Positions 21,108 through 44,216 of a DNA stretch of 51,694 nucleotides are shown here, piece by piece. The stretch spans positions 1-51,694 of the forward strand of contig JACZYU010000002.1 in assembly GCA_022570935.1 (NCBI GenBank), written 5' to 3'. Position 1 is the first letter of the stretch, and each line of letters opens with the position of its first letter. Both the position numbers and the translations under genes were made by a program. The notes under the pieces were generated by a model. The model had not been told where the DNA came from, searched no databases, and worked only from the letters and a program-made list of their open reading frames with translations. This DNA comes from Planctomycetota bacterium (GTDB lineage Bacteria > Planctomycetota > Brocadiia > Brocadiales > Scalinduaceae).

Positions 21108-22169
21108 TCAATTTAAGGTTTTGGTAAATACGGTGTTCCGGAATATCTCTTTTCTCAGTTGATAGCTGTCCGCATGTTTAACATGTCCAATCCAGCTCTG
21201 TATAGAATTGTTAATTTCAGGTATTCTGATATTTCCGTTTTTATACTCTTCTGTCATATCCCTTAATTTCCTTCTATATCTCTTTACAATACTTTTTCTG
21301 ACACGTACGTAATCGGGATATATTCTGTATCCGAGGAAATCTACACCATCTGTTGTCCTGAAAACCCTGCTTTTGTTTTCATGTAAACGCAATCTTAATG
21401 TCATAAGGTATTTTTTGATTTCACATTTGATCTCGTTTAACCATACCTTGGAATTTCCAAAAATAACAAAATCATCGCAGTAACGTATGTAAAACCTGGC
21501 AGTTAATTCTTCTTTGATAAAATGATCAAAGTCGTTCAGATACAAGTTGGCAAAAAACTGACTTGTAAGATTGCCCATTGGTAGGCCTTTTTTCCGGTAA
21601 AGGGGAGTAAAAAGGTCATCACCTTCAAAATACGTTAACTCTCTACCGCTTTGCCTTGAATCGATTATTTGCTTTACAAGCCACATGGTGTTTTTACACT
21701 TTATCTTTTTTTGGACTTTATTCAATAGAATTTCCTGATCAACATTTTCAAAATATTTTCTTACATCACACTTGAGTACGTATTTATTCTTTTTTTGAAA
21801 TTCCTTATAGCGTTGAACAGCTTTATGTGTGCCTCTGCCTTTTAAACATGCGTATGTATCATAGATAAATGATTTTCCTATAGTTGGTTCGATAATGTTT
21901 ATGAGCGTGTGGTGTATGACCCTGTCGAAGTATGGCGCTGCGCTTATAATTCGTTTCTTAGGGTCATAGATATGGAAATCACAATAGGCGCCCGGTACAT
22001 AGGTTTTATTACTCAGGACTTCGATTATCTTCAGGAGATTACGCTCAAGATTGTACTCGAACAATGCTGTAGACGCCTTATATCTTTTCCCCCGTCTTGC
22101 CTTCTTTGACGCTTTCAGTATATTTTCGAAAGATATGATTCTCTCAAAAAGATTATTTTTCCTTTTCAT
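21108..22169 (-). CDS. DGR reverse transcriptase
   Basis: The protein has 353 residues, the usual DGR RT size, without maturase or endonuclease domains. Motifs: KCDVRKYFENVD (catalytic Asp near 135), GLPMGNLTSQFFANLYLNDFDHF (195 onward; the GxxxSQ form is typical of DGR enzymes as opposed to QGxxxSP of group II introns), and YIRYCDDFVIFG, with YCDD at 230-233 in place of YADD. It overlaps the end of avd by 17 bp, so translation is coupled. It would copy the template RNA located immediately downstream, with errors at adenines. A retron RT is unlikely, because there is no msr/msd-like inverted structure and the TR/VR pair is explicit. Confidence 0.95.
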   Translation of the reverse strand: MKRKNNLFERIISFENILKASKKARRGKRYKASTALFEYNLERNLLKIIEVLSNKTYVPGAYCDFHIYDPKKRIISAAPYFDRVIHHTLINIIEPTIGKSFIYDTYACLKGRGTHKAVQRYKEFQKKNKYVLKCDVRKYFENVDQEILLNKVQKKIKCKNTMWLVKQIIDSRQSGRELTYFEGDDLFTPLYRKKGLPMGNLTSQFFANLYLNDFDHFIKEELTARFYIRYCDDFVIFGNSKVWLNEIKCEIKKYLMTLRLRLHENKSRVFRTTDGVDFLGYRIYPDYVRVRKSIVKRYRRKLRDMTEEYKNGNIRIPEINNSIQSWIGHVKHADSYQLRKEIFRNTVFTKTLN

Positions 22170-28718: not shown

Positions 28719-28829
28719 ATGATAGATAACCTTAATGAATTACTTTCTTATATCGAATCTGGAAGAATAAACATCAGGATTCGCAGAAATGATGTTGATG
28801 AGTTATGGTTTGATGTAGATGAAGTATAA
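28719..28829 (+). pseudogene. Internally deleted copy of the gene at 37988-38290
   Basis: The 36-residue frame begins MIDN and then jumps to LNELLSYIESGRINIRIRRN and DVDELWFDVDEV. The intact 100-residue homologue on the other strand has the same start and end with ~63 extra residues between them. It marks the outer end of the left arm of the inverted duplication. Confidence 0.75.
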
Positions 28830-29015
28830 CATGGCAACCGTTCGACTGGGCCCTTCGATAAGGACATTCGGCTGAACTCAGTCGAAGCCCTGAGGGCGGT
28901 GAGGAGTTCGGCTGAGGCTCACTCGAAGCCCTTGCCGAATCCGCTCACACCGATGCCAAGTTTGAAGTGTCTAAAGTTAAAAAAGTGTTTTTTACTACAA
29001 CTTTAGAGGATTAAT
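28830..29015. repeat. Intergenic repeat debris at the outer edge of the left duplication arm
   Basis: This contains GTTCGACTGGGCCC, several TTCGGCTGA-type segments that can pair with each other, and the 20-mer AAGTTTGAAGTGTCTAAAGT shared with 12316 and (reversed) 37926. The matching interval in the right arm, 37870-37987, has the same 20-mer and GAACTCAGTCGAACGGTTG. Confidence 0.5.
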
Positions 29016-29573
29016 ATGTTGAGGAAGACTATTAAATATTTTATTCTAATCGTAATGTTAACCATAGCAGGACTGGTAACAATGTCAGGATGTTCACACA
29101 ATCAGGAGACACTAACCTGGACAGAGGTGATAAGTGATATCAGAGATAAGTACCCGAATGTTAAACAATTCCGGACGGATAAGTTATATTCATGGCTGAC
29201 AGGTTCCAGAAACGGTTCTATAATCTTAATAGATGCCAGGGGAAAGGAAGAATTTCGCGTAAGCCATATTACGGGAGCAAGGAATATCCCTTATGACAAA
29301 GACCCCCTGAAACATCTCACAAATATCAAACCGGACAGCCCAATTGTCGTCTATTGCTCTGTAGGCTATCGTTCTTCAATTCTGGCAGGAAAATTACAGG
29401 ACATGGGTTTTACGGAAGTATACAACCTGGAAGGCTCAATCTTTAAATGGGCTAATGAGGGAAGGCCGCTGGTACAGGGTAAAGTTACAGTTCACAAGGT
29501 CCATCCTTATAATGCCCATTGGGGAAATCTGCTTGAGAGGAAATATCACGTGAAAACTTCAAATGTCGAGTAA
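29016..29573 (+). CDS. Rhodanese-domain lipoprotein (left copy)
   Basis: The protein has 185 residues. A lipoprotein signal ends at MSGC (Cys26). The rhodanese domain has LIDARGKEEFRVSHITGARNIP and the active loop YCSVGYRSS, whose cysteine should carry persulfide. NLEGSIFKWANEGRPL is the usual end of the fold. It would act as a periplasmic or membrane-bound sulfurtransferase. A close copy is at 37339-37869 in inverted orientation. TAGAGG precedes the ATG. Confidence 0.88.
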   Translation: MLRKTIKYFILIVMLTIAGLVTMSGCSHNQETLTWTEVISDIRDKYPNVKQFRTDKLYSWLTGSRNGSIILIDARGKEEFRVSHITGARNIPYDKDPLKHLTNIKPDSPIVVYCSVGYRSSILAGKLQDMGFTEVYNLEGSIFKWANEGRPLVQGKVTVHKVHPYNAHWGNLLERKYHVKTSNVE

Positions 29574-29680
29574 ACAACTGAAACAAGAATATTTTCCTTT
29601 TCACTGGCGTGTGATGGTTAAGACTTTAGAGAATATGACGATAATAAGGATAACCATAATATGAGTAGCGAAAATGAAAT

Positions 29681-30415
29681 CTATGAAAATGCTCCTCGCG
29701 TTGAAACAGTTTTCGAGATAAGATTTCCAGGAGTCAATTGTCTGAAAAGAGCTTTTTTGCAGACTTCCACCACACTTGAATCATAAAGGATACCATTCTT
29801 TCCTGATATCTCCTTTAGAGCGTCAGATATGCTAAAAGCAGGCCTATATGAACGAGGAGATGTCATTGCTTCAACTGCGGCAGTCACACACAAAATCCTT
29901 GCTTCAGGGACAATCTCATCACCGGAAAGACCGGAAGGATATCCTGAACCATCCATTTTCTCGTGATGCTGAAGTACTATTGTAGCAACCGGGCCGGGAA
30001 AATCTATTTTCTTCAATATTTCAAAACCAAGCTGAGGATGGGTATTCATCAACTTTTGTTCATCTTCAGACAACCTCCCGACCTTTCTGAATAACTCATC
30101 CGGCAAATTAATTTTACCTATATCATGAAGCATCCCGGCCATACAAACCCCATCAACTTGTTCCTTTGACATTCCAAGCCCTTCTGCTACATAACAGGCA
30201 AGAATACACATCTCCTGATGATGATAAGATGCATAAGGGTCTTTTCTTTCGACTATTGACACCAAAAGCTGGATAATTTCCCACAGGACCCCCTGCAACT
30301 TCTTTTCCTTCCGGATAAATGCTTCTATCCGCTTGCGTACAACATCATCAGTATGAGATTCAAGAGACTCAAAAACCTTCATCAACTCCAAATTAGATAA
30401 ATTCTCATACATCAT
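29681..30415 (-). CDS. HD-GYP-like phosphodiesterase domain protein, altered metal site
   Basis: The protein has 244 residues. The HD domain is clear: HHQEM, GMLHDIGKINLPDELF, NTHPQLGFEILKKI, then LQHHEKMDGSGYPSGLSGDEIVPEARI, which contains the GYP motif. HD-GYP enzymes degrade cyclic di-GMP. The usual VADxxDAL segment reads VTAAVEAM, so a conserved aspartate is missing and activity may be reduced or lost. No receiver or sensor domain is fused. This gene sits inside the left duplication arm and has no counterpart in the right arm. Confidence 0.8.
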   Translation of the reverse strand: MMYENLSNLELMKVFESLESHTDDVVRKRIEAFIRKEKKLQGVLWEIIQLLVSIVERKDPYASYHHQEMCILACYVAEGLGMSKEQVDGVCMAGMLHDIGKINLPDELFRKVGRLSEDEQKLMNTHPQLGFEILKKIDFPGPVATIVLQHHEKMDGSGYPSGLSGDEIVPEARILCVTAAVEAMTSPRSYRPAFSISDALKEISGKNGILYDSSVVEVCKKALFRQLTPGNLISKTVSTRGAFS

Positions 30416-30762
30416 TCTAAATTCTAATTTTGTTTATTCTTCTATTTTAATTAATTCTCTCTTTATACAATAATATGTTTCAATGAAATAACCGTTGGAC
30501 TGTTTAACAACGTTTGGCCCATCCGGGCGACCTGAAGACCTATATGTGTATAATCCGATGAAATGGATATCATAGCCCCATCCCTCACAATTGCGCTTGA
30601 AGTACAGAATGTTGGCAAACGATGATTATGGGATTGATCGTGTTTTATAAGAAAAACCCAGAAGCAGAATTACCCTATATTGGCGTGATTATAACTATGA
30701 GCCATGTTATGTGAACTTATAACTGCGTGTATTTGTATACTATAAAAAAGTATTCTATCATT

Positions 30763-30848
30763 AAAAAGTGACACTTCCCCATTTATCCAAGTCCGAATAT
30801 GACCAGAAAAGCTTTTTAAGCGGGTAAAATGGATGTGTCCCTTTTTTA
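30763..30848. repeat. ~86-bp imperfect inverted-repeat element downstream of zwf (left)
   Basis: The ends AAAAAGTGACACTTCCCCATTTA and GTAAAATGGATGTGTCCCTTTTTT pair. The loop contains TATCCAAGTCCG and GACCAGAAAA. The right zwf copy has a better-matched version at 37255-37340, whose loop is in the opposite orientation relative to zwf. It may act as terminator for zwf. The rest of 30416-30762 has no gene visible. Confidence 0.75.
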
Positions 30849-30849
30849 A

Positions 30850-32388
30850 TTACAATGCCACTGTTTTCCTTATATCATTGATAATAAATTCGTCAGCAGC
30901 ATACGGCCCCCAGGTACCTGCCCGATAAAGGTGAATATGAGGCAATTCTTCACTGGCCCATCCTTCAAGTATGCCATTCACTAACTTCCATGCTACTTCT
31001 ACTTCATCCTGCCGGATAAAGAGTGTACTGTCACCTAATATAGCGTCTAAAATCAGGCGTTCGTATGCTCCCGGAGGCTCTACATCAAAAACGTCGCTGT
31101 AGCTGAACTCCATGTCTTTAGGTTCTAAGATCATTTTCGGGCCCGGAACTTTCATGCCTATGGACAGGCGTATACCTTCATTCGGTTGCACCCGCAATGA
31201 GAGCATATTAGGTTTCATATGATCCTGCTCTTCACCATCGTTATTTTTTATATGACTGAAAAGCGCAAGAGGCGGCTGCCGGAATTCAATATTAACTTCA
31301 GTAAGTCGTTCTGTCAGCGCCTTTCCCGTACGAAGATAAAACGGTACACCGGCCCAGCGCCAGTTGTCCACATGTAATCTCAGCGCTACAAATGTCTCGG
31401 TCACGGAATTGGACTTTACACCTGCCTCTCTTAAATAATCCGGAATCAATTTCCCATCTATAGTTCCTGCCGCATATTGTCCACGTACGGAACACTCGTT
31501 AACTTTACTCTTTTCAATAGGAGGAATAGCGCTCAACACCTTTACCTTTTCATCGCGTACAGCATCAGGCGCAAAAGAGGCAGGCGGCTCCATAGCAACA
31601 AGCGCCAACAATTGCAGCATGTGATTTTGTACCATATCGCGGAGCGCACCAGAATTGTCATAATATCCGCCGCGTCCCTCCACGCATACGGATTCTGCCA
31701 CGGTGATATGAACATGACTCACGTATCGGCGATTCCAGAGCGGTTCAAATATACTATTGCCGAAACGGAACGCCATTATATTTTGAACGGTTTCCTTACC
31801 CAGATAATGATCGATACGATAAATCTGACTCTCATCTAATATGGATGATAAGCTTTTATTTAAATCGTAAGCGGTTTCAAGGTCACGTCCAAAAGGCTTC
31901 TCAACGATAACTCTTGTCCAGCGATTTTTATCATTCGGATCGGAGATGTATCCGGCCTGACCAAGCATTGCAACAATTCCGGAAAAAACGTTGGGAGGTG
32001 TAGATAGGTAAAACAGGCGATTAGCCTTGGCAGAATCTATTCCGCGTTCTTCACCAAGCTTATCCATCAATTTTTTTAAATCATGAAAACTTTTACTGCT
32101 ATCATAGTTTCCGGTTTGGTAATAGCAACATGAACTAAATACTTTTAATTCCCTGGACCCTGCCTCCGGCTTAGATCTGGCAAATTCTACTAAGGCATCT
32201 TCAATTTCAACACGAAATTGTTCATGAGATTTTTCACGTCTGGCAAATCCGACAATCGTGATCTTTTCTGCAAGTAGACCATCTTTGACCAACTGAAACA
32301 AGGCCGGTATCAATTTGCGTTTTGTCAAATCACCAGACGCACCGAAAATAACTATGGTGGCAGGTTCGGCTTTCTGTCGAGTAGGCAT
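30850..32388 (-). CDS. zwf: Glucose-6-phosphate 1-dehydrogenase (left copy)
   Basis: The protein has 512 residues. The N-terminal dinucleotide-binding motif is IVIFGASGDLTKRKLIPAL, and the active-site motif is YRIDHYLGKETVQN, with EKPFGRDLETA before it. It oxidises glucose 6-phosphate with NADP(+) or NAD(+). It is about 94 percent identical by eye to the copy at 35720-37252. It faces away from gnd, with an intron remnant between. The N-terminal few residues (MPTRQK) differ from the other copy, so the duplication begins at about the second to fourth codon. Confidence 0.96.
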   Translation of the reverse strand: MPTRQKAEPATIVIFGASGDLTKRKLIPALFQLVKDGLLAEKITIVGFARREKSHEQFRVEIEDALVEFARSKPEAGSRELKVFSSCCYYQTGNYDSSKSFHDLKKLMDKLGEERGIDSAKANRLFYLSTPPNVFSGIVAMLGQAGYISDPNDKNRWTRVIVEKPFGRDLETAYDLNKSLSSILDESQIYRIDHYLGKETVQNIMAFRFGNSIFEPLWNRRYVSHVHITVAESVCVEGRGGYYDNSGALRDMVQNHMLQLLALVAMEPPASFAPDAVRDEKVKVLSAIPPIEKSKVNECSVRGQYAAGTIDGKLIPDYLREAGVKSNSVTETFVALRLHVDNWRWAGVPFYLRTGKALTERLTEVNIEFRQPPLALFSHIKNNDGEEQDHMKPNMLSLRVQPNEGIRLSIGMKVPGPKMILEPKDMEFSYSDVFDVEPPGAYERLILDAILGDSTLFIRQDEVEVAWKLVNGILEGWASEELPHIHLYRAGTWGPYAADEFIINDIRKTVAL

Positions 32389-32543
32389 AATATGATTCCT
32401 CCATTTAGGTTTATTTTGTTTTCCCTGTTTCTCTACTCTTTCGATTGTAGAGTGTCACATTATTCAAACCATGTGTGAGGAACTTCAACACCCCTCACAG
32501 AACCGGACTTGTGAATTTCTCACATCCGGCTCTTCAACTTAAC

Positions 32544-33135
32544 TCACTTCACATGTGACAGTGTGTATAGATTATGCTTGATACTTGGTTTCGGAAGAGG
32601 ATAACAACTCAGGTAATCATTAAACTTATTCCAGTTCATCTTCTTCTTTTGACTTCGCCTATTCAGCCATTTGCGTACTAAGCGAACTGTTATTGTGTAG
32701 TATTTTGATATCGAGGGCATATTGCCACTAACACCATAATACTGATAGTGCCCCTGTAGTTTAGTCCTTAATACCTTCCACCATTCTTTCGTTTTCACGA
32801 GGTTTCTTATCGATTTAAGCCAGAGATTCATATCCTTGCATTTCGCTTTAAACTTCTTACGACTCGTCTTACGCCCAACTTTAAATCCTCCTTTGCGGGT
32901 CTTGTCGCAGTAGTGGGTAAATCCCAGAAAATCAAACGTATTAGCACGTCTGTTCTGCTTCTTCGCATTCTCACTTTCAAATCTCCCGAAGCTGAACGCT
33001 CTGCTCTTGTCAGGTCGCCGACTCAGAGAGTCTCTGCCTCGGAGAGATGTATCTCAAGCCCATATCTTTCAAATCTGCCCTTAAGTGCTTTTTCAATCCT
33101 TTGGGCATCTTCCGCATACTGAACTACGCAAACAC
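32544..33135 (-). pseudogene. Group II intron reverse transcriptase/maturase, C-terminal remnant
   Basis: Translation of the minus strand from 33135 gives VCVVQYAEDAQRIEKALKG and RFERYGLEIHLSEAETL, then a frameshift. It resumes with FDFLGFTHYCDKTRKGGFKV and a maturase region LRTKLQGHYQYYGVSGN near the end (frame 32831-32544). This is the part of an RT that follows the YADD motif. Upstream of it lies the 3' end of another intron. The host RT differs from the one at 40659, so this is an independent locus, now decayed. Confidence 0.8.
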
Positions 33136-33485
33136 GGTGAGTCACGCAAGGGAACTTCCCCCTCACGTGCTCTAAAAACCCGGCGTGAACCTCTCAGCTC
33201 AACGGGCTCCCATTATCCAACCGCTGGTTTTAAGCCCATCTTCCAGTGCGGAAACAACCAGGGTTCCTTACTGGCTATTCTGCCCAAAAAGTACTCTGCA
33301 CGCCTGCAATGACCTTTCAACCTCTTAAATTTCCGTGTGACCCACCTAACAAGAGTCCTGTTAAGGTGCCTTAATATTGGATACATTGCCGATTTGTAAA
33401 AACTGCAATAATAATTTATCCAACCCCGGATTACCGGACTAAACATATTGGATAAATCTTCAAGGGACTTATCGCTACGCAGATG
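33136..33485 (-). mobile_element. 3' remnant of an inner group II intron inserted at the YADD site
   Basis: Reversed, it is a near copy of 43108-43457: the C-terminus of the same RT (LHLRSDKSLEDLSNMFSPVIRGWIN, then ...FPHWKMGLKPAVG), followed by the same domain V (AGCCCGTTGAGCTGAGAGG...) and domain VI ending TGACTCACC. It is cut at 33485 by the palindrome at 33489-33563. Confidence 0.85.
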
Positions 33486-33488
33486 TAG

Positions 33489-33563
33489 AAAATAGGGACA
33501 GCGACTGTTTATTACTTTTTTTTATGGCATTCCCAGCCATAAAATAGTCGCTGTCCCTATTTT
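33489..33563. repeat. 75-bp inverted-repeat element with perfect 18-bp arms
   Basis: The arms AAAATAGGGACAGCGACT and its reverse complement are perfect. The loop holds a second small hairpin (ATGGC...GCCAT). It abuts the truncated intron remnant. A half copy lies at 50418-50442 (with GGATAG). It looks like a non-autonomous element or a transposon end pair. The following stretch 33564-33913 has no gene that I can support. Confidence 0.85.
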
Positions 33564-33913
33564 CTCTGCATAATAAGTATTAAACAACCGGCTAAAGAAT
33601 TTCCTGCATCCATGGTCAATCCGGAAAACGGGACGCTTCACTGGATGCTGGATTCTGAAGCTATGGTTTTAATCAATAAAAACGCAAGAGAAGTTATGTT
33701 TCCTTTTTAAGTAACAATTAACTCGCCCGAAGATTTTGATGTAGGGTGAATTAAAGTCCACGGCGTTTTTTGTCCGGGGAAGCGGGGCGCCTGCCTGCCG
33801 GTAGGCGGGAATCCACCAATTATCTATGTTTTCTCAGCGATCACTGCGGTGAACTATTATAAAAAGGGGATAAAAAAAATATAGGTGTTATTATAGCAAT
33901 ATGTACAACTGTT

Positions 33914-35719: not shown

Positions 35720-37252
35720 ATGAAGAAAGCCGAGCCTGTCACCATAGTTATTTTTGGTGCGTCTGGTGATTTGACAAAACGCAAATTAATACCGGCTTTG
35801 TTTCAGTTGGTCAAAGATGGTCTACTTGCAGAAAAGATCACGATTGTCGGATTTGCCAGACGTGAAAAATCTCATGAACAATTTCGTGTTGAAATTGAAG
35901 ATGCCTTAGTGGAATTTGCCCGATCTAAGCCTGAGGCAGGATCAAGCGAATTAAAAGTCTTTAGTTCATGTTGCTATTACCAAACCGGAAACTATGATAG
36001 TAGCGAAAGCTTTAAAGATTTAGGAAAATTACTAGAAAAGCTTGATGAAGAACGTGGAATGGATTCTGCCAAGGCCAACCGCTTGTTCTACCTCTCTACA
36101 CCTCCCAACGTTTTTTCCGGAATAGTTGCAATGCTTGGCCAGACCGGACATATCTCCGATCCGAATGATAAAGATCACTGGACAAGAGTCATAGTTGAGA
36201 AGCCTTTTGGACGAGACCTTGAAACCGCTTGCGATTTAAATAAAAGCTTATCATCTATTTTAGATGAGAGCCAGATTTATCGTATCGATCATTATCTGGG
36301 TAAGGAAACCGTTCAAAATATAATGGCGTTCCGCTTCGGCAACAGCATATTTGAACCGCTCTGGAACCGGCGCTACGTGAGTCATGTTCATATCACAGTG
36401 GCAGAATCCGTATGCGTGGAGGGCCGCGGTGGCTATTATGACAATTCGGGAGCGCTCCGCGATATGGTACAAAATCACATGTTGCAATTGTTGGCGCTTA
36501 TTGCCATGGAGCCGCCTGCATCATTTGCGCCTGATGCTGTTCGAGATGAGAAAGTAAAGTTATTAAGTGCAATTCCTCCCATTAAATCGAATGAGGTTAA
36601 TGAGTATTCCGTACGTGGACAATATGCGGCAGGAACTATAGATGGAAAATTAATTCCGGATTATTTAAGAGAGGCTGGTGTAAAGTCCAATTCTGTGACC
36701 GAGACCTTTGTAGCGCTGAGATTACATGTGGACAACTGGCGCTGGGCGGGTGTACCGTTTTATCTTCGTACCGGAAAGGCACTGACAGAACGCCTTACTG
36801 AAGTAAATATTGAATTTCGGCAGCCGCCTCTTGCTCTTTTCAGTCATATAAAAGATGATGGGGAGACAGAGGAACAGAGTCGTATGAAACCTAATATGCT
36901 CTCATTGCGGGTACAACCGAATGAAGGTATACGCCTGTCCATAGGCATGAAAGTTCCGGGCCCGAAAATGATTTTAGAACCTAAAGATATGGAATTCAGC
37001 TACAGCAACGTTTTTGATGTAGAGCCGCCAGGGGCATATGAGCGCTTGATTTTAGATGCTATATTAGGTGACAGCACTCTCTTTATCAGGCAGGATGAAG
37101 TCGAAGTAGCATGGACGTTAATGAATGGCATACTTAAAGGATGGGCCAGTGAAGAATTGCCTCATATTCACCTTTATCGGGCCGGCACCTGGGGGCCGTA
37201 TGCTGCTGACGAATTTATTGCCAATGATATAAGAAAAACAGGGGCGTTGTAA
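35720..37252 (+). CDS. zwf: Glucose-6-phosphate 1-dehydrogenase (right copy)
   Basis: The protein has 510 residues with the same motifs as the left copy (FGASGDLTKRKLIPAL; RIDHYLGKETVQN). The start is MKKAEPVTIVIFG with GGGGCAAGAA before the ATG. Differences from the left copy cluster in a few surface segments (for example SSESFKDLGKLLEKLDEERG versus SSKSFHDLKKLMDKLGEERG). Both copies look functional. This one is downstream of gnd and co-directional, so it is the likelier partner in an operon. Confidence 0.96.
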   Translation: MKKAEPVTIVIFGASGDLTKRKLIPALFQLVKDGLLAEKITIVGFARREKSHEQFRVEIEDALVEFARSKPEAGSSELKVFSSCCYYQTGNYDSSESFKDLGKLLEKLDEERGMDSAKANRLFYLSTPPNVFSGIVAMLGQTGHISDPNDKDHWTRVIVEKPFGRDLETACDLNKSLSSILDESQIYRIDHYLGKETVQNIMAFRFGNSIFEPLWNRRYVSHVHITVAESVCVEGRGGYYDNSGALRDMVQNHMLQLLALIAMEPPASFAPDAVRDEKVKLLSAIPPIKSNEVNEYSVRGQYAAGTIDGKLIPDYLREAGVKSNSVTETFVALRLHVDNWRWAGVPFYLRTGKALTERLTEVNIEFRQPPLALFSHIKDDGETEEQSRMKPNMLSLRVQPNEGIRLSIGMKVPGPKMILEPKDMEFSYSNVFDVEPPGAYERLILDAILGDSTLFIRQDEVEVAWTLMNGILKGWASEELPHIHLYRAGTWGPYAADEFIANDIRKTGAL

Positions 37253-37254
37253 TT

Positions 37255-37340
37255 AAAAAAGGGACACATCCCATTTATCCAAGTCCGAGTATGACCAGAA
37301 AAACTTTTTAAGTGGGTAAATGGGATGTGTCCCTTTTTTT
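37255..37340. terminator. Inverted-repeat element, likely bidirectional terminator between zwf and rhodanese genes
   Basis: AAAAAAGGGACACATCCCATTTA and its reverse complement enclose a ~40-bp loop and are followed by a T run. This gives a strong hairpin with T tracts in both senses. It ends exactly at the stop codon of the minus-strand rhodanese gene. A related element follows the left zwf copy. Confidence 0.7.
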
Positions 37341-37869
37341 AATGATATTTCCTCTCGAGCAGTTTTCTCCATTGGGCATTATAAGGATGTACCTTGTGTA
37401 CTGTAACTTTATCCTGTACCAGCGGCCTTCCCTCATTAGCCCAATTAAAGATTGATCCTTCCAGGTTGTATACCTTCGTAAAACCCATGTTCTGTAATTT
37501 TCTTGCCAGGAGGGAAGAACGATAACCTACGGAACAATAGACGACAATTGGACTGTCTGGTTTGATATCTGTGAGATGTTTCAGGGGGTCTGTATTATAA
37601 GGGATATTTCTTGCTCCGGTAATATGACTCACGCGAAATTCTTTCATGCCTCTGGCATCTATTAAGATTATAGAACCGTTTTTGGAACCTGTCAGCCATG
37701 AATGTAGCTCATCCGTCCAGAGTTGTTTAACATCAGGGTACTTATCTCTGATATCACTAATCACTTCTGTCAAGGTTAGTGTTTCCTGATTATGTGAACA
37801 CCCTGACATTGTTTCCAGTCCTGCTATGGCGAACATTACGATTAGAATAAAAACCCTTTTCTTTCTCAT
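37339..37869 (-). CDS. Rhodanese-domain lipoprotein (right copy)
   Basis: The protein has 176 residues. The lipobox is MSGC, the active loop YCSVGYRSS, and the body follows the left copy closely (NLEGSIFNWANEGRPLVQ versus NLEGSIFKWANEGRPLVQ). The first ~10 residues differ and the C-terminus is shorter by nine residues, because it ends in the adjoining hairpin element. The active cysteine is retained. It belongs to the right arm of the inverted duplication. Confidence 0.88.
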   Translation of the reverse strand: MRKKRVFILIVMFAIAGLETMSGCSHNQETLTLTEVISDIRDKYPDVKQLWTDELHSWLTGSKNGSIILIDARGMKEFRVSHITGARNIPYNTDPLKHLTDIKPDSPIVVYCSVGYRSSLLARKLQNMGFTKVYNLEGSIFNWANEGRPLVQDKVTVHKVHPYNAQWRKLLERKYH

Positions 37870-37987
37870 CTACTCTGATATTTCCTTGATAACAAACGCG
37901 GTTTGAACCGTTTAAACCGTTATTTTTCCCCAACTTCAGACACTTCAAACTTGGCTTCGGCGTGAACTCAGTCGAACGGTTGCTAAG

Positions 37988-38290
37988 TCATACTTCGTCT
38001 ACATCAAACCATAACTCATCAACATCATTCCTGTGAATCTTGATATTTACGTTTCCTTTAGCAATATACGAAGACAATTCGTTGAGGTTTCCTAAAGCAA
38101 ATGAAAGGAACTCATGATCTTCTATTTCATCGCTGAGTAACTGTTCATACATTCTAAAAGCGGTTTCAATATCTATTTCACCCTTACTGAGTGTTGCGAC
38201 TACCTCTGCTAATTTTGATATGCAATCCGGCGAGATTTGATGAAAGTAAGCCCTTTCTTCAGGTTGGGTCCAACCGGGGTTATCTATCAT
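37988..38290 (-). CDS. Hypothetical protein, full-length copy of the duplicated small gene
   Basis: The protein has 100 residues, acidic and helical (FHQISPDCISKLAEVVATLS, then IETAFRMYEQLLSDEIEDHEF), and ends in DVDELWFDVDEV. No family is recognised. It is the outermost gene of the right duplication arm. Its left-arm counterpart has lost ~63 residues. Confidence 0.6.
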   Translation of the reverse strand: MIDNPGWTQPEERAYFHQISPDCISKLAEVVATLSKGEIDIETAFRMYEQLLSDEIEDHEFLSFALGNLNELSSYIAKGNVNIKIHRNDVDELWFDVDEV

Positions 38291-39636: not shown

Positions 39637-40658
39637 TATCTCTATCCCGGAGGATATGGGTTTAAACTATTGTACTTTTGTCTGTCTCAATCTAATTTCC
39701 ACAGTCCTACTTGTCTCAAACTATGTGCCAACGTTATTTTATCCGCCAAAACTATAAGAATATCTACGTCCTAACATACTGATGGTACGGGGCTTGTAAA
39801 AATAAAAAACATACCTTAGGGAGGGTGGTGGTGTTCCAATCTGACGTATGCATGGTGGGGGAATTTCTCCCAGTCAATTCGGAGAATTGTTTCTAAAATT
39901 TGCGGTATTTACAGGAATATAAACAAGTTATGAAGGGGGGGGCAGAAAACCCCTCACCTGGGGTGATTTCACCCCACATTTTAGAAGAAAATATCCACAG
40001 GTATTCTTTAAAGGAATCTTTTATGAACACCGGCTAGCGGCGTGCTGCTTGGCGGGCTTGCCCGACGATTCGTGTGGCGGGTGCGGTGAATTATCTATTT
40101 GCTTTTACCTTTTAGTGCTAATCCGGTTTACTCCAGCTATGCTGGATTGTTCTATTCAATTGAAACGTATTGAAATTGGTAATTGTTTATTCGCCAATTA
40201 GCTGCGCATTGGCGTGTGAAAGTGATGGATCACGCGAAACATTGCGGTATTGGTAAGTGTGTTAATGCGAAGAAGGATGGTTCCTTCCGACAGCGAAGAT
40301 GTGAGCCCTAATAAAGTGAACCTGTTTCGGCCTCGTTACACTAAACTGCCGTTGGCTATCCTGCCGGATATGGTGAAGCCTGCTACAGACATGGAAGAAA
40401 TAAACGAATGCACATGTCAGGACGGTCGGGGTGATTGGGGAGAGCGCGCATCGAAAGAACAATCATGGTATCTGGGATATCCTTCCCGCGTCATTTTCTC
40501 GGAGGTCGAGAGATTGAAAAGGTGTTGGGGAATCAATAACTTGATTATCTGCGGAGAAGGAAGTCGGAGCGGCCAATAAGAGCGAAGACGCAGGGTAATG
40601 CCTGTCAAGCAAAGTGGCCGTACCGTTATTATGTTTACAGAATAGAAAGGAGTTCCGC

Positions 40659-41594
40659 TTGAACGCAGACCGTTCCACTACGGGCAAGGTATTATTCGGG
40701 AGTCATATTCCGGAAAAAGATATGCCGTTGAAACTCTCTTTACTACGCTGGAAACTTGGCTGCAAGGCCAAGCAGGAACCTGAGTTTCGGTTTTATGCGC
40801 TGTATGATCGTATTTATCGACGTGATGTTCTGGAAACAGCCTACAAGATTGCGAAGCAGAAGAACGGTTCCCCTGGAGTGGACAATGTGTCATTTGATGA
40901 CATAGAGAAGTCCGATCTTGGTGCAGCAGGTCTTATCGACTGTCTGCATGAGGAATTACGGTGCAAGTCGTATAGACCGTTACCGGTAAGAAGGACGTAT
41001 ATTGCCAAGGCAAATGGGAAGATGCGCCCCCTGGGCATTCCGTGTATACGGGACAGAGTGGTGCAGGCGGCGACGAAATTAATTCTGGAGCCGATATTTG
41101 AGGCAGATTTCTTTAACTGTTCTCATGGTTTCAGGCCGAAACGCTGCGCCCATGATGCGATTGGACAAATACAGGCCAATCTGCGTGACGGCAGGACAGA
41201 AGTTTATGATGCAGATTTGTCATCCTACTTCGACACGATAGACCATGAACTTCTGATGGAGATGATAAAGAAACGAGTCAGTGATCGGTCAGTTCTGAAG
41301 CTCATTAGAATGTGGCTGAGATGCCCTTTCAGCGAAGAGCAGAAGGATAAAGGTTGCGTGGGAAATTCACGGATTGCAAAAATCCGTAGAAAACTCTCGA
41401 AAAAACTTGCGAAGTCTAAGGGGAGCAGAGGTGTCTCTAAGCTCACGAAACCGACATGCGGAACGCCGCAGGGCGGCGTGATTTCTCCTCTGCTTGCCAA
41501 CATCTTTCTCAATGAGTTGGACAAGGCTTTTCATTGTCAGCCGGGTTCACCGCTTTACTTTGCAAATGCGCGTCTGATCCGCTATGCCGACGAC
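40659..41594 (+). CDS. Outer group II intron RT/maturase, 5' exon part
   Basis: A TTG at 40659 with AAAGGAG 7 bases upstream gives residues from [16 protein letters not shown]. It includes [51 protein letters not shown] and [22 protein letters not shown], and ends exactly at LIRYADD. The coding continues at 43458 after the inner intron. Spliced, the protein would be about 480 residues, a normal group II intron RT. Without splicing it is truncated ten codons past YADD. Confidence 0.85.
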
Positions 41595-41595
41595 T

Positions 41596-43457
41596 GTGTG
41601 CCACGAACGAAACTTAGCGTTAGCTGAGTTTCTTAGCTGCACAAAAGATGAGGGTAGACCCCTCGGAGTCGCCTTGCAGGAGGAGACTTCAAACCGCCTC
41701 AAGCTGCATTGGTCAAGAGCCAATGTGGTGAGCGTTGAGGGAAAAGGCTCAGCAAGACTGAGTCAGGTACGTGACTTGGAGACGAATGAAAATGAACCAC
41801 CGATGAAGTGTCGAAAGCGTAGAGAAGGCGTCAAAACCGGGGGGTAGTCGTTAATCCGGGATAAGTCCAGAAGAAACCTGTTTACTGACTGGTCGGCGTC
41901 CGGCATTAAGGTGGCGTGAACTTGACACAGGCTTTTGTGCGGAACGTGGGAACCTGTCGTTCAGATGCTAAGGGAGAATTTCAAGTGGAAGCCCCACAAG
42001 AAAGAGAGTACCAATGCTGAACACAGGGGCGGATTTCCCCGTAGTAGCAGCGAAGGTCAGTAATGCGGCCAGAGCAAAGGGGGAGAGTTATCCAGCAATA
42101 TTTAAAGAACAACCATTAATTGGGAGGAATCTTTGAGTAAAGCAAAGTCGTTTATAATTTCTAAAGAGTTGGTATTGGAAAGCTGGAAACGAGTAAAAGC
42201 GAATAAAGGATCCTGTGGGATAGATGACGAGTCTATATCAGAATTTAGTGAAGATTATAAAAACAATCTTTACAAGATATGGAACCGCATGTCATCGGGC
42301 AGTTATTTTCCTCCACCGGTAAAAACGGTAGGAATACCGAAAAAGAGTGGGGGAGTAAGAGTGCTTGGAATTCCGACGGTCTCAGATCGAGTAGCACAGA
42401 TGGTAGTGAAACTGCACTTTGAGCCTCTTGTGGAGCCGTATTTTCATATAGACTCTTACGGATACAGGGAGGGTAAATCAGCGATACAAGCGGTAAGAGT
42501 AACAAGGAAGCGTTGTTGGAAGTATGATTGGGTATTGGAGTTTGACATCAAAGGTCTTTTTGATAACATTGGTCATGATCTATTGATGCGAGCAGTACGT
42601 CATCACACGAATTGCAAATGGACGCTTTTGTACATCGAAAGATGGCTGAAAGCTCCATTTAAGTTAGAAGACGGCTCTATTGAAATCAGAACCAAGGGGA
42701 CGCCGCAAGGCGGAGTAATAAGCCCTTTGTTGGCTAACCTGTTTTTGCATTATGTATTTGACAAATGGATGGAGCTAAATCATCCAGGAAAACCTTTCAG
42801 CCGCTATGCGGACGATGGGGTAGTTCACTGCAAAACAGAAGCTGAAGCGCAATTGTTACTGAAGGCTTTGTCAGCGAGATTTATTGAATGTGGTCTTGAG
42901 CTTCATCCTGAGAAAACGGTGATAGTCTACTGTAAAGACGATGATCGAGTTAAAGATTACCCGAACACGAGCTTTGATTTCTTGAGTTTTACATTTCGTC
43001 CAAGGAGGTCTAAGAATCGTTTTGGCAAATTCTTTATCAATTTTTCTCCTGCGGTGAGTAATGCTGCCGCAAAAGCGATGAGACAAAAGGCGAGAAAATG
43101 GAAACTTCATCTGCGTAGCGATAAGTCACTTGAAGATTTATCCAATATGTTTAGTCCTGTAATCCGGGGTTGGATAAATTATTATTGCAGCTTTTACAAA
43201 TCGGAGATGTATCCAATATTAAGGCACCTTAACCGGACTCTTGTTAGATGGGCCACACGGAAATTTAAAAGGTTGAAAGGTCATCGCAGGCGTGCAGAGT
43301 ACTTTTTGGGCAGAATAGCCCGTAAGGAACCCTGGTTGTTTCCGCATTGGAAGATGGGCTTAAAGCCAGCGGTTGGATAATGGAAGCCCGTTGAACTGAG
43401 AGGTTCACGCCGGGTTTTGAGAGCACGTGAGGGGGAAGGTCCCTTGCGTGACTCACC
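41596..43457 (+). mobile_element. Inner group II intron, inserted at the YADD codons of the outer RT
   Basis: The element starts GTGTGCCACGAACG and ends in a domain VI hairpin ...CCCTTGCGTGACTCACC. Domain V is at 43384-43418. Removal joins GCCGACGACT to ATGTCGTAATGG, giving YADD-Y-VVMARYMGRR, a perfect RT continuation. The 5'/3' junction could be shifted by one base. Length is ~1,862 bp, with its own RT gene at 42133-43380. Confidence 0.85.
42133..43380 (+). CDS. Inner group II intron reverse transcriptase/maturase
   Basis: The protein has 415 residues, starting at TTG with GGGAGGAA upstream. RT motifs: [72 protein letters not shown] and the active site FSRYADDGVVHC. The maturase domain includes MFSPVIRGWINYYCSFYKSE. 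The C-terminus is FPHWKMGLKPAVG, with no HNH endonuclease. Retargeting to single-stranded DNA at replication forks, or use of nicks, is likely for introns lacking the endonuclease. The gene looks intact, so the intron may be active. Confidence 0.93.
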   Translation: MSKAKSFIISKELVLESWKRVKANKGSCGIDDESISEFSEDYKNNLYKIWNRMSSGSYFPPPVKTVGIPKKSGGVRVLGIPTVSDRVAQMVVKLHFEPLVEPYFHIDSYGYREGKSAIQAVRVTRKRCWKYDWVLEFDIKGLFDNIGHDLLMRAVRHHTNCKWTLLYIERWLKAPFKLEDGSIEIRTKGTPQGGVISPLLANLFLHYVFDKWMELNHPGKPFSRYADDGVVHCKTEAEAQLLLKALSARFIECGLELHPEKTVIVYCKDDDRVKDYPNTSFDFLSFTFRPRRSKNRFGKFFINFSPAVSNAAAKAMRQKARKWKLHLRSDKSLEDLSNMFSPVIRGWINYYCSFYKSEMYPILRHLNRTLVRWATRKFKRLKGHRRRAEYFLGRIARKEPWLFPHWKMGLKPAVG

Positions 43458-43954
43458 ATGTCGTAATGGCTCGCTATATGGGCAGACGCATAACTGACTG
43501 GCTGGAAGCCATCGTCGAAGATCAACTGAAGCTAAATATAAATCGGAAAAAGACAAAGGTAGTTAAAATGAAGCGGCAAGGGGAAGCTCTTGATTTTCTT
43601 GGATTTACCATGCGATACGATAAGGATTTGCATGGTAGAAACCGAACGTATCTGAATACCTTCCCGTCTATAAAGGCAATAGCCAAACATCGGGAGAAGT
43701 TGCGAACTGTTACAAATAGCGGTTATAAGCGCTCGATGTCTGATACTATTGCCAAGGTTAATGAAATTAACCGTGGTTGGAAGAATTATTTTTGCAAAGG
43801 ATATCCAAGGAAATGCTTCAGAGATATAAACTGGTTTGTACTAGAACGTTTCAAATCATTTATAAATCACCGGAGCCAACGACGATGCCGACCTCTCAGA
43901 GATGGAGAAAGCCTCTATGCAGGATTGCGTAGATTTGGCTATGTACCTCTTTGA
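43458..43954 (+). CDS. Outer group II intron RT/maturase, 3' exon part
   Basis: This reads VVMARYMGRRITDWLEAIVE, then LKLNINRKKTKVVKM, LDFLGFTMRYDKDLHGRNRTYLN and the maturase part EINRGWKNYFCKGYPRKCF, ending LRRFGYVPL. It has no independent start signal; it depends on removal of the inner intron. Domain V of the outer intron follows 50 bp after the stop. Confidence 0.85.
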
Positions 43955-44216
43955 TACCAGCAGAATCGGGTTCTCCTGTGCATGCCTTGTGACGAGAATA
44001 GCGGGTGAGCCGTATTAGTGGAAATCTCTATCTACGGTTCGATGAGGACTTCGGGATTAAACCCCCGAGGTTACTCTACTGAAATTAGTGTCTGTCTTTT
44101 GCCTTTCATTTACTTATTTGATCTTTAAGCATTGATTTGACATTTGAGCTTAATTCAAAATCCTTTGTTATTTACAACTTTTGTTCACTTTGATCTTTAG
44201 CTCACTTTAGTCACTT

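Follow-up and report, generated by a model that had tools for sequence, protein, structure and literature searches.

The window, by which we mean the whole stretch of 51,694 nucleotides analysed here, carries on its minus strand the 3' end of a group II intron that is followed directly by the C-terminal half of a different, decayed group II intron reverse transcriptase (RT) gene, and on its plus strand a complete copy of the same inner intron within another RT gene. This arrangement raises the question of whether the inner intron is aimed at the RT genes of other introns and, if so, at which of their codons. The anatomy of the copies, repeated independent insertion at the YADD codon in unrelated RTs, complementarity between EBS1 and IBS1 with covariation, and in-frame junctions point to the same answer, namely that the inner intron, guided by its EBS1, very probably homes on the active-site motif that other group II introns carry in their RTs and would thus behave as a parasite of parasites.

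Complete and Truncated Copies of the Inner Intron in the Window

The complete inner element (Table 1) has the features of a group II intron, that is, a GTGTG start at 41596, Rfam matches to RF01999 (41650-41768) and RF00029 (43382-43457), and an encoded protein with RVT_1, GIIM and TIGR04416 above cut-off. With domain V of the inner intron at 43382-43457 and a second domain V belonging to the outer intron further downstream, the arrangement is a twintron; Rfam gave no match for the 5' domains of the outer intron. The six exon bases in front of the intron, ACGACT at 41590-41595, constitute IBS1. The spliced host RT reads on as YVVMARYMGRR..., the junction being YADD-Y-VVMARY. The RT encoded by the inner intron itself has its own active site, YADDG, at 42805-42819. 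A first guess that placed the 5' boundary between ...TGT and GTGCC was dropped, as relatives start with GTGCG and the base before it varies. In a Pfam scan, no En domain was detected in the RT of the inner intron, and this protein is about 60% identical to ltrA proteins of S. meliloti. Most likely, the element is a mobile intron of group II that falls in class D (IIB3), whose members lack an En domain; the class is assigned by likeness to Sinorhizobium introns, with an RT tree that contained no labelled class D reference such as RmInt1.

Table 1. Features of the two copies of the inner intron and of their hosts in the window.
Feature	Position	Strand	Basis
Host RT 5' exon, ends ...LIRYADD + T (40614 is a mechanical start)	40614..41595	+	RVT_1 8.8e-24, TIGR04416 1.3e-77
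Complete inner intron, 1862 nt, GTGTGCC...GACTCACC	41596..43457	+	Family comparison, reading frame across junction
Predicted EBS1, AGTCGT	41846..41851	+	Alignment of 79 introns; complementary to own exon
Inner intron's own RT/maturase, 415 aa (P0001), TTG start	42133..43377	+	RVT_1, GIIM, TIGR04416 1.4e-123
Host RT 3' exon, AT + GTC GTA...	43458..43954	+	GIIM 3e-11, TIGR04416 1.5e-22, frame
Domain V/VI of outer (host) intron	44005..44079	+	Rfam RF00029, 40.2 bits
Inner-intron remnant, 5'-truncated: C-terminal RT, domains V-VI, 3' end ...GTGACTCACC	33136..33488	-	95% to 43105-43461
3' exon from another, decayed group II RT (C-terminal half)	32544..33135	-	TIGR04416, C151 alignment
Domain V/VI of the intron that encoded the decayed host RT	32376..32534	-	Rfam RF00029, 51.5 bits

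The remnant on the minus strand (33488-33136) and the 3'-terminal part of the complete copy (43105-43461) share 95% DNA identity and form inverted repeat I4; the C-terminal RT of the remnant is 95.6% identical over 91 aa to the RT of the inner intron. From 33135 downwards, the sequence reads GT GTT TGC GTA GTT, that is, (N)VCVVQYAEDAQRIEKALKGRF, and the 3' exon opens with the second base of the codon that follows YADD. The decayed host RT that follows has a TIGR04416 match (32547-33053, minus strand, 1.6e-10), shows one visible frame change near 33023-33053, and is 55.6% identical over the first 36 aa and 68.2% identical over 148 aa to an intact RT encoded on contig C151 of the same genome. 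Because the first V of the 3' exon aligns to residue 277 of the C151 protein, which reads YADD-L-V, the remnant and the complete copy are by this alignment cut at the same place, one nucleotide past the YADD codons. The 5' half of the host is absent at the remnant, and judging from the 3' exon and the C151 protein it would have ended in YADD. The sequence-only reading had recognized the 3' end of the inner intron in front of a different group II RT, which the 95% repeat, the TIGR04416 match and the C151 alignment confirm. It had further proposed that this second RT is interrupted at the same codon; the C151 alignment supports this as well, with the refinement that the splice point proper lies one nucleotide past YADD, within the next codon.

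A palindrome (AAAATAGGGACAGCGACT...AGTCGCTGTCCCTATTTT) at 33488-33564 lies directly against the 5' truncation of the remnant and looks as though the arrival of this palindrome, or else a deletion, had cut the intron. Around the remnant there is also a large inverted duplication (28723-32375 and 35724-38094, 80-92% identity), each arm of which contains an ORF of about 510 aa (30850-32388 and 35720-37252); we take these ORFs to resemble glucose-6-phosphate dehydrogenase.

Insertion Sites of Relatives

Relatives of the inner intron were collected from 392 genomes of the same phylum (by DNA), from the best 80 loci on GTDB contigs, from 8 viral loci and 10 plasmid regions, and from Methanosarcina. 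After removal of 7 duplicates, the 125 loci gave 118 distinct ones, 36 of them without a readable 5' site and 82 with one; L001-L004, L030, L123 and L125-L128 had been left out earlier as superseded or partial, and L009, a YADD case, is not among the 118. The 5' site is [YF]ADD in 48 of the 82 readable loci, a degenerate xADD in 4, and lies elsewhere, several times in transposases, in 30. In 43 of the 82, [YF]ADD is in phase (YCDD in L098 counted) and the 5' exon matches RTs by BLAST, and in another 5 with YADD the exon is too short or too decayed for BLAST. The best 80 GTDB loci alone, a biased sample since they were picked by likeness to the RT of the window and six relatives, comprise 75 distinct and 58 resolved loci, with YADD or xADD in 36 of the 58. 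By the labels in the tree, YADD cases span Bacillota, Pseudomonadota, Acidobacteriota, Planctomycetota, Verrucomicrobiota, Bacteroidota, Actinomycetota, and Methanosarcina. The hosts are diverse, as 39 host fragments have a median pairwise identity of 38.9% and fall into 34 groups at 70%.

A second sample, drawn from 398 genomes by the 5' end of the intron instead of by RT similarity, yielded 9 matches in 8 genomes. Five of these lie at [YF]ADD of an RT (one of them, L170, being L041 again), one at YGDD, one at FADD just past a stop, and two elsewhere; the YGDD and FADD cases are remnants. L168 and L175 have a YADD-type 5' end in DNA without RT likeness, and L175, whose exon ends in ...TTTGATGATT and fits EBS1, is probably an off-target insertion.

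The expectation that tabulated 5' exons would always encode YADD holds for the own genome of the inner intron (3/3) but not for its relatives, 52 of 82 of which are at YADD or xADD and 30 elsewhere; most resolved copies thus do not lie in other sites, and the proposal of the sequence-only reading withstands the check that it had named.

Two loci have an unusual structure. In L138 (plasmid pMl3 of Sinorhizobium meliloti ml59), a second GTGTGCCACGA intron with its own ltrA stands directly after the 3' end of the first, so that two introns are in tandem at one YADD site of an RT. In L059, from a Thermoplasmata archaeon, the GTGCGCCACGA start lies only about 112 nt upstream of the RT start, and most 5' domains of the intron seem to be missing or rearranged.

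EBS1 and the Spelling of Its Target

The EBS1 loop in the 5' part of the intron was aligned across 79 of the 82 introns (L016, L077, and L105 left out) and is free of gaps in 51 of the 52 YADD/xADD introns and in 16 of the 27 others. In the 51, it reads AGTCGT (42), TGTCGT (5), GGTCGT (2), AGTTGT (1) or AATCGT (1), and in every one of them it pairs with the last six bases of its own exon at 5 or more positions when G-U is allowed, with all six paired in 36. The EBS1 of this group pairs with only 58 of 1377 combinations involving exons of the other group. Conversely, EBS1 of the introns at other sites fits the own exon in 14 of 16 cases and YADD exons in 37 of 832, examples being CCGTAA with TTACGG (L062) and ACCACC with GGTGGT (L012, in an IS66-type gene). 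The two failures, L079 and L110, are apparently due to an alignment shift of one column.

Within the target, the first Asp codon ends in T in 34 introns and in C in 17, and EBS1 places G opposite this third base in all 51. Opposite the third base of the second Asp codon, EBS1 has G in 50 of 51, including all 20 cases in which that base is T. Because the partner stays G whether the third base is T or C, the guide appears not to be adjusted to the spelling of its present host and would fit all four spellings of Asp-Asp.

These data suggest the following course of homing. EBS1 AGTCGT would pair with the DNA that encodes the catalytic Asp-Asp of RTs (GAY GAY T), and homing would be directed to the active-site motif in the RTs of other group II introns, irrespective of how closely the host RTs are related; with G opposite both synonymous third positions, every spelling of Asp-Asp would be accepted. 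Reverse splicing would insert the intron past the first nucleotide of the codon after YADD, the RT that it encodes would then carry out the reverse transcription, and in-frame splicing would let the host RT still be made. The splicing and the mobility of the inner intron are inferred, as is the sense in which it is a parasite. The earlier proposal that it parasitises other introns is supported, with the qualification that not every host RT was placed within an intron.

Exon Junctions and the RT Genes of the Introns Themselves

Excision of the intron, with one nucleotide of the split codon before it and two behind it, leaves the host reading frame open for 30 aa or more in 35 of 52 introns, whereby the 3' end was picked among candidate motifs by the longest frame, a procedure that favours open frames. 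The residue that follows YADD in these 35 is Phe (20), Ile (5), Cys (3), Leu (2), Ser (2), Tyr (1), Trp (1) or Val (1). The 17 failures consist of 10 cases without a 3'-end motif and 7 with less than 30 aa.

In 94 RTs of the family, a set that includes relatives at other sites, YADD is followed by the base G in 78 and by A in 16, never by T or C. For the YADD-group introns, this base (position -1) pairs with the intron's own EBS1 in 4 of 46 own RTs versus 33 of 46 hosts. The mismatch at the own site may reflect self-avoidance or plain constraint on the protein. A strict self-immunity is not claimed, as the 94 RTs with G or A include other-site relatives, so that protein constraint explains the pattern equally well.

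Phylogeny of the Intron RTs and Other Target Motifs

In an unrooted tree of 95 RTs, one clade of 32 members (support 100/97) contains 24 introns at YADD, 2 at xADD, 6 with unresolved sites, and none elsewhere, i.e., 26 of 26 resolved sites are of the YADD type. The Methanosarcina introns lie within this clade. The RT of the window is placed outside it, in a small, mostly YADD group that neighbours the clade and adjoins transposase-homing introns. That YADD homing is monophyletic in the whole family was rejected, since the label needs 19 changes on the tree, a count that treats unresolved members as another label. The label is nevertheless clustered, 19 changes comparing with a mean of 31.8 when labels are shuffled, and none of 500 shuffles was as low. 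Specialisation on YADD is a property of sub-lineages and not of the whole class, because 30 of the 82 resolved relatives sit elsewhere, including in transposase genes. The suggestion that the intron specialises in RT active sites is therefore upheld for the own genome and for the 26 resolved members of the clade, but not for the wider family with its sub-lineages at transposases and other sites.

A different explanation would be that class D introns home on any well-conserved run of codons in enzymes of mobile elements and that the RT motif is one of several equal choices. Relatives situated in genes of the IS66, HTH_21 and DDE transposase families would fit such a general habit, as would the three introns, from two genomes, that follow Pro-Gln in the PQG motif of RTs. 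We consider it the less likely explanation, as the sub-lineages hold to their own site with a matching EBS1 and no exception to YADD was seen in the genome of the window or in the 32-member clade.

The other targets deserve some description. Pfam domains in the 5' exons comprise DDE_Tnp_IS66 (L090), zf-IS66 (L012), DDE_Tnp_1 (L093), DDE_Tnp_1_5 (L075), and HTH_21 (L015, L140, L141), while Pfam gave no family for the 5' exons of L074 and L020 and a weak match to an unrelated family for that of L068. Four introns on one branch (L015, L106, L140, L141; HTH_21 in three) share the site W-x-[TSA]-D-I of IS3-like transposase genes, presumably the first catalytic Asp of IS3-type transposases, of which we take HTH_21 to be typical. 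Five others (L072, L074, L075, L080, L093) start with GTGYGCCGCAGGC and are inserted after words such as RWKIE, HWQIE, and EWHQE, presumably at the catalytic Glu of IS4-type enzymes; two of their 5' exons match DDE transposase families. The three PQG-site introns stem from two genomes of the order of the window (L017 and L032 from G275, L019 from G354) and sit directly behind G[TML]PQ in three RTs (GTPQ, GMPQ, GLPQ). The candidate loop TTGTGG of L017/L032, paired by eye, matches CCGCAA at 6/6 and CCTCAA at 5/6 positions, and PQG would by this inspection be a second RT motif used for homing.

Independent Insertions Within One Genome

Four matches to the inner intron exist in its own genome. Two of the copies, as well as several others, are cut by contig ends; the two in this genome keep their 5' exons. 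The 5' exons on contigs C252 and C9 end in ...KHVRYADD + T and ...ELVRYADD + T, respectively, each followed by GTGTGCCACGA, so that all three readable 5' exons of the genome lie at YADD plus one nucleotide (3/3), the fourth copy being a YADD case by its 3' exon. Over the available stretches, the introns have 97-98% DNA identity at their 5' ends (95% for the remnant), and the three hosts with readable 5' exons are only 28-39% identical to one another in protein, so that the insertions are independent. With regard to the predicted self-splicing and retromobility, the genome shows near-identical copies at separate sites.

Besides the intron's own RT, Pfam RVT_1 detects three occupied and three uninterrupted RT genes in this genome, the latter being C151 with YADDL, C140:21321-21959 with YCDDF, and C202 with FMDDW. 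The C9 host is 77% identical to the C151 protein over 104 aa, and it forms one RT subfamily with the host of the remnant. An uninterrupted RT of 353 aa with RYCDDF is also found in the window itself (21108-22169, minus strand).

An identical position in all YADD cases is what one would also see if a single ancient insertion into an RT gene had been carried along as the RTs diverged, the codon then being shared by descent. Such vertical inheritance is highly improbable in view of introns with 95-98% DNA identity in hosts of 28-39% protein identity within one genome, of the uninterrupted C151 relative of two hosts, and of an EBS1 that covaries with the target in relatives at other sites. Mis-joining of two different introns at a repeat during assembly, a thought prompted by the two copies that stop at contig ends as repeats do in short-read assemblies, can practically be dismissed, since joins of this kind, again with open frames, turn up in independent records, three complete plasmids (NC_013792.1, NZ_KP791968.1, and NZ_CP126031.1) among them.

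Relation to Known Introns

If the inner intron indeed homes on RT active sites, a whole intron lineage would live on the enzymes of other introns and offer a natural model of retroelement hyperparasitism, as well as a case of an RNA guide that codon wobble adapts to a motif of a protein. Two questions would then become accessible to tests, namely whether hosts are held in check by the introns nested in them and how an intron that parasitises RT genes leaves the one it encodes untouched. More broadly, and tentatively, class D introns may form a guild of hyperparasites whose guides are aimed at catalytic motifs of mobile-element enzymes (YADD and PQG of RTs, words of transposases); in this case the YADD guides, with G at the synonymous positions, would in effect read an amino-acid motif, and the mismatch between the guide and the base after YADD in the own RT would limit self-insertion. 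We regard this wider proposal as plausible, though somewhat short of probable.

Three systems resemble the present one. RmInt1 and RmInt2 of Sinorhizobium meliloti are En-less introns of class D/IIB3 with EBS/IBS-guided homing that are likewise aimed at other mobile elements (PMC5894124), but their targets are the insertion sequences ISRm2011-2 and ISRm17 and not RT genes. Introns of Thermosynechococcus elongatus home to a fixed place in the ORF of another intron, forming F3-in-F1 twintrons (Mohr, 2010, PMC2882425), and share with the introns described here an evolved insertion at a conserved site of another intron's ORF; there, however, the site lies between the first and the second ATG of a single intron family and the inner introns are without ORFs. 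For Methanosarcina, a tendency of introns to insert into other introns of group II, in their RT genes or sequences, is on record (Dai and Zimmerly, 2003, cited in PMC1712230, PMC4424553, and PMC2882425), and the insertion into RT genes of other introns makes the nested introns of Methanosarcina acetivorans and M. mazei similar to those studied here. As described in those citing papers, the Methanosarcina case concerns one archaeal genus and related host introns, whereas the present introns occur in many phyla and mostly in unrelated host RTs, and their site is tied to active-site codons and to a wobble-tolerant guide. In the literature searched, outside which lie Dai and Zimmerly (2003) and a 2002 survey, no description of the YADD codons as a bacteria-wide homing site or of a wobble-tolerant EBS1 was found. 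Set against these sources, the codon-level, lineage-wide pattern extends the already reported homing into RT genes both in breadth and in precision. Relatives of P0001 are present in 3 of 30 Methanosarcina genomes, and all five copies are located at [YF]ADD; with their insertion into RT genes and their position in the tree, these copies belong to the same lineage.
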